DNA from: Collimonas arenae
GTDB lineage: Bacteria; Pseudomonadota; Gammaproteobacteria; Burkholderiales; Burkholderiaceae_D
Length of the DNA stretch: 64,000 nucleotides
Assembly: GCF_000786695.1 (NCBI RefSeq)
Contig: NZ_CP009962.1
Coordinates: 62,001-126,000 of the forward strand
Reading direction: 5' to 3'
This document shows positions 5,241-7,569 of the stretch, piece by piece. Position numbers and translations under genes: made by a program. Within the stretch, counting starts at the first letter, position 1, and every line of letters starts with the position of its first letter. The notes under the pieces are model-generated. The model saw nothing but the letters and a program-made list of their open reading frames with translations. It searched no databases and was not told the origin of the DNA.

Positions 5241-5417
5241 TCATGTGTCATGGTCCTCTCTGGTTTTGCGTCCCGACAGGATCTGGTTCAGTTTCTGTTT
5301 TTCAGCCCGCCGCACCTGGCGCGCCGGGTTGTAGCCATCATGCGATCCGGCTTTCCGGGTTCTGGCGGCAACCACCAGAGGATTGCGCGGCTTCGGCAGT
5401 TTAATTGTGATTTTCAT
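5241..5417 (-). CDS. Small basic protein translationally coupled to rtcB
   Basis: 58 aa and strongly basic, starting MKITIKLPKPRNPLVVAARTR and ending in a charged tail; no membrane segment or signal peptide. The TGA stop of rtcB lies within AAAGGATGAACATGAAA, which also contains two possible ATG starts for this gene (5423 and 5417). The AAAGGA at the end of rtcB is best spaced for the second. This overlap implies coupled translation with the RNA ligase. The Lys/Arg-rich character and the coupling suggest an RNA-binding or accessory role, but I recognise no named domain and assign no function. Confidence 0.65.
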   Translation of the reverse strand: MKITIKLPKPRNPLVVAARTRKAGSHDGYNPARQVRRAEKQKLNQILSGRKTREDHDT

Positions 5418-5419
5418 GT

Positions 5420-6628
5420 TCATCCTTTTATGCAAATGACCTGGCGCAGCGTGTGCACCTCGTCGACCAGATCGGTCTGATGCGCCATGACCTGGTCGAT
5501 GTCCTTGTAGGCGGCTGGAATTTCATCGACTACGCCGCCATCCTTGCGGCATTCGATTCCCAGTGTCTGGTCGGCCAGGTCGAAGCGGCTGAAGCGACGC
5601 TTGGCTTCGGTCCGGCTCATGCGCCGCCCTGCCCCATGCGAGCAGGAACAGAACGATTCCGGATTGCCCTTGCCGCGCACGATGTAGCTCTTAGCGCCCA
5701 TGCTGCCAGGAATGATGCCGAGCTCGCCTGCACGCGCCGAGATCGCTCCTTTGCGGGTGATGAACAGGTTTTCATTACCGTGCATCTCACGCGATACATA
5801 GTTGTGATGGCAGTTGATCGCTTCGCCATCGAGTTTGAACGGCGGCAGTTGCTGCGTCAGCACGTCGACCGTGCGCCGCATCATTTCGCGACGGTTAATC
5901 AAGGCATAGTCTTGCGCCCAGTCGACGGCGTCGACGTAATCGTCGAACAGCAGCGATCCTTCGCTGAAGTAAGACAGGTCCTTGTCCGGCAAGTTGACAT
6001 GGTTGCGGGCCATATCCTTTTTTGCGGCGGAAATGAAATAGCGTCCGATCACGTTGCCGATGCCGCGCGAGCCGGAATGCAGCATGATCCAGACCCGTTG
6101 TTCTTCGTCCAGGCAGATCTCGATGAAGTGGTTGCCGCCGCCCAGCGTGCCGATCTGGCAAATCCAGGTCTGGGCAAATTTGTGCTGCATCTTCATGATG
6201 CCCTTGTGCTTGGCCACGATCCGGTCCAGCCGGTCGTTTAGCGGCCGGCCGACGCGTGCATGGGCCGAACCGCGCACCTTGTTCCACTCATGCTGTTCGA
6301 AGCCGACCGGAATCGCCGCTTCAATGGCGCTGCGCAGGCGCGCCAGGTTGTCCGGCAGCTGGCTGGCCGTCAGCGTGGTACGGACTGCATTCATGCCGCA
6401 GCCGATATCGACCCCGACCGCTGCCGGAATGATGGCGGCGCGGGTAGGAATCACGCTGCCGACGGTGGCGCCGATGCCGGCATGGACGTCCGGCATTGCC
6501 GCCACGTGCGGATACACGATCGGCAGGTTGGCGATATTGAGCAGCTGCTGGAGCGCGCTGTGATCGATATCGTCGGTAAATATGTGCACGGGCACCAGGC
6601 CCTTGTGCAAGCTCTGTTTGATTGGCAT
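5420..6628 (-). CDS. rtcB: RNA-splicing ligase RtcB
   Basis: 402 aa, close to E. coli RtcB (408 aa). RtcB joins a 2',3'-cyclic phosphate or 3'-phosphate RNA end to a 5'-OH end, using GTP and Mn2+. The metal-site and active-site residues are all present: VGVDIGCGM (D74, C77), GTLGGGNHFIE (H167), HSGSRGIGN (H184), INCHHNYVSRE (H274/H275), and SCSHGAGRRMSR with the histidine that becomes guanylylated (H331). No rtcA cyclase or rtcR sigma-54 activator is adjacent, unlike in E. coli. Instead an HNH endonuclease gene and a structured leader with a terminator lie upstream, and a small basic protein is coupled downstream. Confidence 0.95.
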   Translation of the reverse strand: MPIKQSLHKGLVPVHIFTDDIDHSALQQLLNIANLPIVYPHVAAMPDVHAGIGATVGSVIPTRAAIIPAAVGVDIGCGMNAVRTTLTASQLPDNLARLRSAIEAAIPVGFEQHEWNKVRGSAHARVGRPLNDRLDRIVAKHKGIMKMQHKFAQTWICQIGTLGGGNHFIEICLDEEQRVWIMLHSGSRGIGNVIGRYFISAAKKDMARNHVNLPDKDLSYFSEGSLLFDDYVDAVDWAQDYALINRREMMRRTVDVLTQQLPPFKLDGEAINCHHNYVSREMHGNENLFITRKGAISARAGELGIIPGSMGAKSYIVRGKGNPESFCSCSHGAGRRMSRTEAKRRFSRFDLADQTLGIECRKDGGVVDEIPAAYKDIDQVMAHQTDLVDEVHTLRQVICIKG

Positions 6629-6682
6629 AACGTTTCTCTGTCATACCGGGGTTCTCGTCACGGATCGCATGGCCGCGCCCGC

Positions 6683-6720
6683 AAAAAACAAAAACCCCGG
6701 CGAGTTTCCTCACCGGGGTT
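6683..6720 (-). terminator. Strong intrinsic terminator ahead of rtcB
   Basis: The 12-base stem (AACCCCGGTGAG with CTCGCCGGGGTT, one G-T pair) closes on a GAAA tetraloop and is followed by TTTGTTTTTT on the minus strand. It lies 55-92 bases upstream of the rtcB start, in the direction of rtcB transcription. Either rtcB has its own promoter in the remaining 55-base gap, or read-through is regulated. Confidence 0.85.
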
Positions 6721-6785
6721 CATGGTTGGAACGACCGGCTCGGGTCGGCAAAATCGCCGCATACCCCGAGCAGTCATGCGCGGGG

Positions 6786-6824
6786 CTATCTGTTGTTTGA
6801 ATTGTTGATAGCCGTCCGTGGCAT
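6786..6824 (-). CDS. Possible 12-codon leader peptide
   Basis: On the minus strand, CAGGAAAGGAACGGCC precedes an ATG that opens MPRTAINNSNNR and a TAG stop. The purine-rich ribosome-binding stretch is well placed. The 3' part of the ORF and its stop fall in the P1 stem of the structured leader, so translation would melt that hairpin. The length and position are those of a regulatory leader peptide. The composition (four Asn in twelve residues) is suggestive but proves nothing. Chance is a real alternative for an ORF this short. Confidence 0.35.
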   Translation of the reverse strand: MPRTAINNSNNR

Positions 6825-6976
6825 GGCCGTTCCTTTCCTGTAAAAATATTGTTAGTCGAAAATACCGAGTTGCGATTCTGCACCCGATGAAATCAGCGTG
6901 TCAAACAAATCACCGCAATGCGGCGTTATTCCGTTGTTTTTTTCACGCAGCCGGGCGCCAAGAATCGCGTTCCGCC

Positions 6977-7549
6977 TTAGTTCAATTCGCGCATGCGGCT
7001 GTGCTTTGGCAGGCGCGCGGCCAGGTAGTCGTGCTGGTCGGCCAGTACGTTGCGGCCGCTTAGCAGATAGTGTTCGGCGCGGCAAGGCACATACGGCACG
7101 TACAGCAGCGGGCGGAAACTCTCCAGCGCCTTGCTGCCTTTTTCCTGGTTGCAGTCCTTGCACGCCGTCACGCAATTCATCCACGTATCCCGGCCGCCGC
7201 GCGAACGCGCCAGCACATGGTCGCGCGACAATTCATTGTGGGGAAAGCGGCCGCCGCAATAGGCACAGGTGTAACGGTCGCGGCGGAACAGCAGATCGTT
7301 GTGATGGCCCAGCGGCAGTTCCAGGTGCAGCATGCGCGCCATGATGGCGCTGCCGGCGATGGCGATGATAGGTTTGACGGCGATGCGCGACTGAATGCCT
7401 GCATGGGAATAACCGCCGCGGAAAACGATGTCGCCGTCTCCAAGTTCCCAAGCCACCTTCCCGCTCGCATAATAGAGCACAGCATCTTGCGGCGAAATCC
7501 AGTCGAACGGGTTTCCCGCGATATCGAGAGTCAGGATATGGGAGGTCAT
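6977..7549 (-). CDS. HNH endonuclease
   Basis: About 190 aa. The C-terminal half has a complete zinc-bound HNH module: CAYCGG (first Cys pair, near residue 97), LSRDHVLARSRGG with the catalytic DH, WMNCVTAC with the structural Asn, and CKDCNQEKGS closing the second Cys pair. The N-terminal 80 residues lack a recognised domain. The second ATG (7549) is chosen because AAAGG lies 8 bases upstream; an ATG at 7555 is too close to it. The gene points toward rtcB on the same strand, with a 350-base gap that holds the structured leader. HNH enzymes of this kind are usually called DNA nucleases, but the position next to an RNA ligase makes an RNA or tRNA target worth considering. Confidence 0.88.
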   Translation of the reverse strand: MTSHILTLDIAGNPFDWISPQDAVLYYASGKVAWELGDGDIVFRGGYSHAGIQSRIAVKPIIAIAGSAIMARMLHLELPLGHHNDLLFRRDRYTCAYCGGRFPHNELSRDHVLARSRGGRDTWMNCVTACKDCNQEKGSKALESFRPLLYVPYVPCRAEHYLLSGRNVLADQHDYLAARLPKHSRMRELN

Positions 7550-7569
7550 TTTCATTACCTTTGCTGCTG

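Follow-up and report, generated by a model that had tools for sequence, protein, structure and literature searches.

Background

Attenuators of the trp and his type place a leader open reading frame (ORF), mutually exclusive hairpins and a terminator before their structural genes. An RtcB-like gene with a leader was described in Pseudomonas aeruginosa, where armZ (PA5471), possibly in one operon with the release-factor-like PA5470, encodes an anti-repressor of an efflux pump, and where PA5471.1, a leader of 13 amino acids about 250 bp upstream of armZ, was proposed to act by transcription attenuation upon exposure to ribosome-targeting drugs (PMC12057347, PMC3516279). Loss of the CCA-adding enzyme left more of the PA5471.1 leader mRNA bound to ribosomes, with an involvement of codons 3 and 4 (a 2026 paper, PMC13041342); according to a review, MexXY appears to be the only case in which a leader peptide controls an anti-repressor, and PA5471 has been assigned to the PRK09588 cluster in one paper. 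In another system, RtcB2-PrfH protects Escherichia coli ATCC25922 from colicin E3 (PMC9223846). Here we analyzed a stretch of 64,000 nucleotides from Collimonas arenae (NZ_CP009962.1, positions 62,001 to 126,000; "the window", in which all positions below are counted), where a structured intergenic RNA lies between an HNH gene and the RNA ligase gene rtcB. We regard this RNA as probably a ribosome-mediated, translation-stress-responsive transcription attenuator placed before rtcB and a gene for a small basic protein.

Leader architecture and its conservation

The minus strand carries, in this order, the HNH gene (7555-6977), a gap of 348 bases (6976-6629), rtcB (6628-5420) and the small basic ORF (5423-5241), after which the next long ORF lies on the opposite strand. 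The RNA of the gap (6870-6629) has a folding z-score of -5.2, with 0 of 200 shuffles as good, and includes a 13-pair intrinsic terminator with a T run at 6721-6692 (minus strand). An earlier sequence-only reading had noted HNH and RtcB on one strand with a structured RNA and a strong terminator between them, and the domain matches, the z-score and the terminator bear this out. Its "three-hairpin RNA" contains a leader ORF and has a promoter-like site upstream (6904-6875), both of which that reading left unmentioned. The parts of the locus are the following:

6875-6904, minus strand: promoter-like site TTGACA-18-CAGAAT, -35/-10 upstream of the leader (consensus scan, 10/12; similar sequences by eye in relatives)
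6831-6838, minus strand: Shine-Dalgarno (SD) sequence GGAAAGGA of the leader ORF, within segment A (sequence; aligned across 47 Oxalobacteraceae leaders)
6786-6824, minus strand: leader ORF of 12 codons, peptide MPRTAINNSNNR, stop TAG (ATG and frame kept in 47/47)
6784-6813, minus strand: hairpin H1 within the ORF, GGCTATC / GATAGCC, stop codon in its 3' arm (both-side changes in 2/7 pairs; 91% of cells paired)
6764-6785, minus strand: segments B (CCCCG, 6785-6781) and C (GCTCGGGG, 6771-6764), forming the alternative hairpin B:C (99.6% of cells paired)
6738-6771, minus strand: C paired instead with E1 (CCCGAGC, 6744-6738), enclosing a small hairpin (99.4% of cells paired; both-side changes in 2/7 pairs)
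6728-6739, minus strand: E2 GCCGGTCGTTCC, predicted partner of the leader SD region (off) or of the terminator 5' arm (on) (covariation; masked folding)
6692-6721, minus strand: intrinsic terminator; E2 is predicted to pair with its 5' side (6721-6712) as the antiterminator (folding, terminator scan, covariation)
5420-6628, minus strand: rtcB, RtcB1 type (the name used here), RNA ligase of 402 amino acids (PF01139)
5241-5423, minus strand: small basic protein of 60 amino acids (from 5423) or 58 (from 5417) (core PRNP...R.AG.H...RR)
6977-7555, minus strand: HNH protein (PF14279/PF01844)

In the alignment of 47 Oxalobacteraceae leaders the ATG is invariant (47/47) and 46 of 47 rows have their stop codon in the same column. 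Between the ATG and that column lie 33 to 51 nt, in five different lengths that are all multiples of three (47/47). The lengths of the stretch after the stop leave all three remainders (22, 18 and 7 rows) and so keep no frame.

Among 108 distinct regions upstream of rtcB in Beta- and Gammaproteobacteria, 86 have the layout of an SD sequence, a short ORF and a terminator, from Collimonas to Rhodocyclales, Steroidobacter, Marinobacter, Alcanivorax and relatives of Thiothrix, and the 86 ORFs encode 72 different peptides. This count comes from a rule-based search with corrections by hand (skipped: L119, L128, L137, L139, L143 and L150; fixed: L032, L096, L098, L099, L108 and L120), with identical upstream regions counted once and a possible leader seen by eye in L008 left uncounted; genomes and loci overlap between the collections used here. 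Under a stricter automatic rule (an ATG start, an ORF of 8-18 codons and a terminator 40-135 bases away), from which the 19 of 108 regions lacking an automatically called terminator were excluded, the layout occurred in 83 of 89 regions (Oxalobacteraceae 46/46, others 37/43) vs. 99 of 2670 shuffles (3.7%), and when the SD match was set to 5 bases instead of 4, in 74 of 89 vs. 27 of 2670. Taken from the sequences, this architecture is close to certain, and outside Oxalobacteraceae it is the only established part. The leader codons show no run for one amino acid and none that dominates, so that they do not have the signature of an amino-acid biosynthesis attenuator.

RNA structure and predicted switch

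In the off-state fold, segment A with the SD pairs with E2, H1 forms within the ORF, C pairs with E1 around the small hairpin, and the terminator stands, with 93.4% of cells paired across the alignment. Both-side changes occur in 14 of 40 pairs, a count that is inflated by the relatedness of the leaders and is reached by 0 of 500 shuffles, while versions of the structure slid along the alignment gave at most 5; the covariation that the sequence-only reading had proposed to look for is thus present. Within the SD:E2 helix, 5 of 9 pairs show such changes (86.7% of cells paired, 13% unpaired), and the B:C hairpin varies little, with no pair changed on both sides. Judged by these compensatory changes, the structure is under selection. 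The scan of the window against Rfam at gathering scores gave no match and a tRNA search found none, and an Rfam RNA or a tRNA-like RNA was rejected as its identity.

The predicted switch comes from masked folding: a ribosome was represented by 30 bases kept unpaired at various codons, and each leader was folded up to the terminator loop (L098 excluded). Across the 47 Oxalobacteraceae leaders, the mean probability that the terminator 5' arm is sequestered was 0.74 when the ribosome sat at codons 0-3, against 0.28 in its absence and 0.26 when it had reached the last codons. The difference was 0.476, compared with 0.028 when the middle (from the stop codon to the terminator) was shuffled; 9 of 564 shuffles reached it, and it exceeded 0.2 in 45 of the 47 leaders. 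In the window leader, E2 (GCCGG..GTTC) pairs with GAAC..CCGGT of the terminator under masking, and therefore E2 is predicted to choose between the leader SD and the terminator. C was also considered as the antiterminator partner of the terminator 5' arm; this pairing is weaker by hand than that of E2, was not chosen by folding, and was dropped. Both the switch and its direction are predictions for Oxalobacteraceae, where an ON position at the early codons is the likely logic according to these folds.

On this basis, a promoter that is probably constitutive would transcribe the leader with its strong SD and 12-codon ORF. With no ribosome on the leader, or with ribosomes already past, A would pair with E2 and C with E1, the terminator would form, and rtcB and the small gene would stay off. 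A ribosome lingering at the start or on the first codons would cover A, so that B would pair with C, E2 would be free for the terminator 5' arm, and transcription would read through into both genes. The lingering may be caused by uncharged, damaged or missing tRNA, by failing initiation or by ribosome-targeting drugs, and the products would handle damaged translation RNAs, RtcB by ligation and the basic protein probably by binding the ribosome or RNA; the signal and this last role are inferred.

Between the terminator and the rtcB start (6629-6691), the window holds a further copy of AACCCCGG, which could pair with the terminator 3' arm and has similar copies in relatives; perhaps it serves translational control of rtcB.

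Genes downstream of the leader

We combined the RNAalifold structure with 28 of the 47 Oxalobacteraceae leaders into a covariance model and searched 392 genomes of the family with it. Of these, 73 gave a total of 79 strong matches (E <= 6.1e-16), those to the 28 input leaders not being independent. These 79 leaders stand before an intact rtcB1 (44), a frame-shifted rtcB1 (3), tandem GNAT genes (6) or, where rtcB1 has been lost, immediately before the small basic gene (26). For the GNAT and small-gene loci, 33 leader places were assigned by reading, the small gene of G011 having been missed by the search pattern and found by eye, and weak matches in G018, G154 and G378 as well as a second one in G412 were set aside as unconvincing. 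All 46 genomes with an RtcB1-type match (at least 74% identity) carry a strong leader, and in 44 of the 46 the match is full length, the other two being G279 and G311.

Outside the GNAT group, leader and small gene occur together in 72 of 73 cases (43 of 44 with intact rtcB1, the 3 with broken and the 26 without rtcB1), the exception being G274, where an ATPase-like ORF follows rtcB. The pieces of rtcB1 in G279, G311 and also G357 lie in different frames between the leader and the small gene, as if on the way to loss. Where rtcB1 is gone, 3' remnants begin near nt 1140, 1168-1173, 1181, 1184 or 1195 of the gene, a 5' remnant (1-121) is left in G108, and elsewhere no remnant is recognizable; these junctions differ from each other and therefore point to several independent deletions. 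G003, G011 and G012 have the leader and no RtcB match in the whole genome. Because the leader and the small gene stay together in 72 of 73 cases and are kept where rtcB1 was lost, they form the core of the unit, and RtcB is its frequent partner.

The second leader copy before tandem GNAT acetyltransferases was seen in six genomes of one genus, g64 (e.g., L212:4483-4926, L213:7578-8530 and L214:7600-8552). The GNAT pair of G251, which was scanned, matches PF00583, with RimI as the best NCBIfam match, far below the cut-off. These six genomes encode the small protein elsewhere, beside the other leader in those that were read.

RtcB of the window has a full-length RNA ligase domain (PF01139, 434 bits, E 8e-130, residues 28-402, profile positions 1-426 of 426) and is the only RtcB match in the genome. 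It scores below the family cut-offs of TIGR03073 (148.9 vs. 271.8 bits) and PRK09588 (179.3 vs. 407 bits). The absence of RtcA and RtcR, which the sequence-only reading had noted for the locus, extends from the window to the whole genome, where RtcR (PF06956) and RtcA (PF01137) had 0 matches with the control genomes positive. Just upstream of the other rtcB type (~60% identity), tRNA-like stretches were seen by eye in L012, L017, L027 and L029, and in G006, G009 and G013 of the Collimonas genus (L070, L071 and L003), the two rtcB types share a strand at a distance of ~2.3 kb, the second one of G009 being split over two matches.

The ATG of the small ORF at 5423 overlaps the rtcB stop (ATGA) and opens a protein of 60 amino acids, and the form of 58 amino acids begins at 5417, just past the stop; the overlap which the sequence-only reading had ascribed to the shorter form therefore belongs to the longer one. 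The small protein follows rtcB in 45 of the 46 genomes with an RtcB1-type match, in agreement with the coupling of the two proposed in that reading. In 58 aligned members picked from the matches, the family shows a P-R-G-H-R skeleton that does not vary. The database search gave 672 members at E <= 0.001, and the named ones among the 120 listed are called hypothetical or uncharacterized. Four members that were scanned had no significant match in Pfam or NCBIfam, including none to release factors, and the search for solved relatives returned nothing beyond one match at E 0.53. The median ratio of nonsynonymous to synonymous substitution rates (dN/dS; first 45 codons, gap-free) was 0.11 over 11 sequences (55 pairs), seven of them from genomes with rtcB1 gone. 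In a wider set spread over the class, the family was present in 31 of 369 genomes, and 12 of 30 small-gene loci, the window's own included and partial matches counted, had an rtcB sequence within 1.5 kb upstream. Because of the basic charge and the genomic company of the protein, we would guess that it targets the ribosome or RNA. At one gammaproteobacterial locus of this family with no rtcB nearby (L235, in G654), a longer leader-like ORF and a strong terminator were seen ~330 bases upstream of the small gene.

Weighing the explanations

The conserved frame, the off-state covariation, the masked folding, the layout, the leader contexts and the lack of RtcR and RtcA matches all support the attenuator. 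Several results weigh against it. The off-state structure was derived from the window's own sequence, which favors it over the slid controls, and the RNAalifold consensus of the same alignment contains H1, C:E1 and the terminator and lacks SD:E2. In the predicted antiterminator, which is conserved, changes on both sides affect 3 pairs, two of which belong to the small hairpin that it shares with the off state; 460 of 500 shuffles reach 3. Its E2:terminator helix has a CCGG:CCGG core that never varies and a GUUC:GAAC part that, at one pair, is open in up to 18 of 47 rows. The E2:terminator pairs show no excess of covariation over shuffles, largely for want of variation. Outside Oxalobacteraceae, the switch did not emerge clearly from masked folding: the difference was 0.045, which 165 of 456 shuffles reached, and it exceeded 0.2 in 3 of 38 leaders. 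In the gammaproteobacterial, Rhodocyclales and termite-gut groups the leader start region pairs downstream in single-sequence folds among those listed, with no common switch resolved. The layout was not scored in 22 of the 108 upstream regions, and the AlphaFold2 model of the small protein is uncertain (two helices; predicted template modeling score, pTM, 0.36).

Among the alternatives, the small basic protein (or RtcB) could bind the leader RNA and set termination by autoregulation, with the ORF secondary. In favor of this are the basic character of the small protein and the retention of its gene, which accompanies the leader more faithfully than any other, but a frame kept in 47 of 47 leaders would be needless for protein binding, RtcB as an obligate binder is excluded by the leaders that persist in genomes with no RtcB match, and six leaders stand before GNAT genes, a weaker objection since the small protein encoded elsewhere in those genomes could act in trans; overall, we find autoregulation unlikely. 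Attenuation by an amino acid or a tRNA species, for instance as a sensor of anticodon-nuclease damage, would have codons with A in the middle (read by Asn, His, Gln, Lys, Tyr, Asp and Glu tRNAs) slow the ribosome. Such codons are modestly enriched, at 37% in 33 hand-picked representative leaders vs. 28% in 299 gene starts taken from the loci (0 of 10000 resamples), which would suit such a sensor, but the bias is explicable by the A-rich loop of H1, no amino acid dominates, the peptides differ from leader to leader, and by the folds a ribosome would switch the leader on from its first codons and not from the later middle-A ones. Attenuation by a single amino acid was rejected for want of a codon run, and the tRNA-species version appears quite improbable to us.

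The sequence-only reading had suggested a cleavage and repair module, in which the HNH protein cuts, RtcB reseals and the RNA is substrate, guide or switch. All parts are indeed adjacent on one strand in the window and the switch would agree with an attenuator, but HNH lies within 1.5 kb upstream in only 7 of the 46 genomes with an RtcB1-type match. It is found near the leader in six genomes of the same genus (Collimonas) without that rtcB, and in 0 of the other 30 loci checked. Because of this low co-occurrence and its persistence beside leaders that lost rtcB1, HNH is, as gene neighborhoods go, a local and incidental neighbor, and it was rejected as a partner. The expectation that the four elements travel together thus failed on HNH, whereas leader, rtcB and basic protein are largely found together, and leader and basic protein even more so. 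Of the roles offered for the RNA, the switch is favored by a conserved, covarying candidate, and RtcB substrate or guide was rejected since some genomes retain the leader and have no RtcB match. As a whole, we see hardly any likelihood in the module. It is likewise very improbable that the region merely ends transcription of the upstream gene and that its hairpins and ORF arose by chance: it does lie directly downstream of HNH on the same strand, but the leader survives at loci that have no HNH beside it, the frame, the SD and the compensatory changes are conserved, the ORF layout is rare in shuffles, and a promoter-like site separates HNH from the leader.

The attenuator may also be one instance of something larger. 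More tentatively, and with somewhat less than even confidence, we suggest that a translation-damage sensor widespread in Beta- and Gammaproteobacteria could drive a small rescue factor that binds the ribosome or RNA (the PRNP...AG.H family), with RtcB optional, and that the armZ leader could be a specialized case of an older rule by which, where RtcR is lacking, the ribosome itself would control rtcB. The unnamed small-protein family, under strong selection beside the sensor even after RtcB was lost, is a candidate translation-stress factor.

Comparison with known systems

How bacterial RNA repair is switched on without RtcR had no earlier answer as far as we found, and sensing of translation failure by a leader ORF would be a direct and testable one. 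A literature search over titles and the first parts of abstracts, with most subscription papers and preprints outside its range, returned no leader peptide before rtcB other than that of armZ and no account of the small-protein family.

With the trp and his attenuators the locus shares the leader ORF and the terminator before the genes; it differs in having no codon run for a single amino acid and in its predicted ON position at initiation and the first codons. With E. coli rtcBA and RtcR it has in common that expression of an RtcB ligase is regulated (PMC9650030, PMC5175333), whereas no RtcR or RtcA match was found here and control appears to take place at transcription termination. The rtcB2-prfH system resembles it in that RtcB has a partner on damaged ribosomes, which there is PrfH, whereas here it would be a small basic protein with no release-factor match. 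Upstream of rtcB2-prfH, possible leader ORFs with SD-like sequences were seen by eye in L166 and L170 (MKNTLLPFADLFS and MQQLHLQYLFGI), 2 of the 5 loci above the TIGR03073 cut-off.

By its published description, the leaders themselves not having been aligned, armZ is similar in its short leader ORF, in the RtcB-family gene downstream, in the terminator between them and in an attenuation that was proposed to answer to stalled ribosomes. It differs in that the RtcB studied here falls below the TIGR03073 and PRK09588 cut-offs and is not of the armZ type, and in that the gene after rtcB is a small basic ORF with no family match instead of a release factor (a statement about the locus only, as prfH was not searched elsewhere in the genome). 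The involvement of codons 3 and 4 of PA5471.1 fits, by analogy, the early-codon switch predicted here, and if the proposed mechanism is true, the clinically studied armZ leader would gain a wider context.

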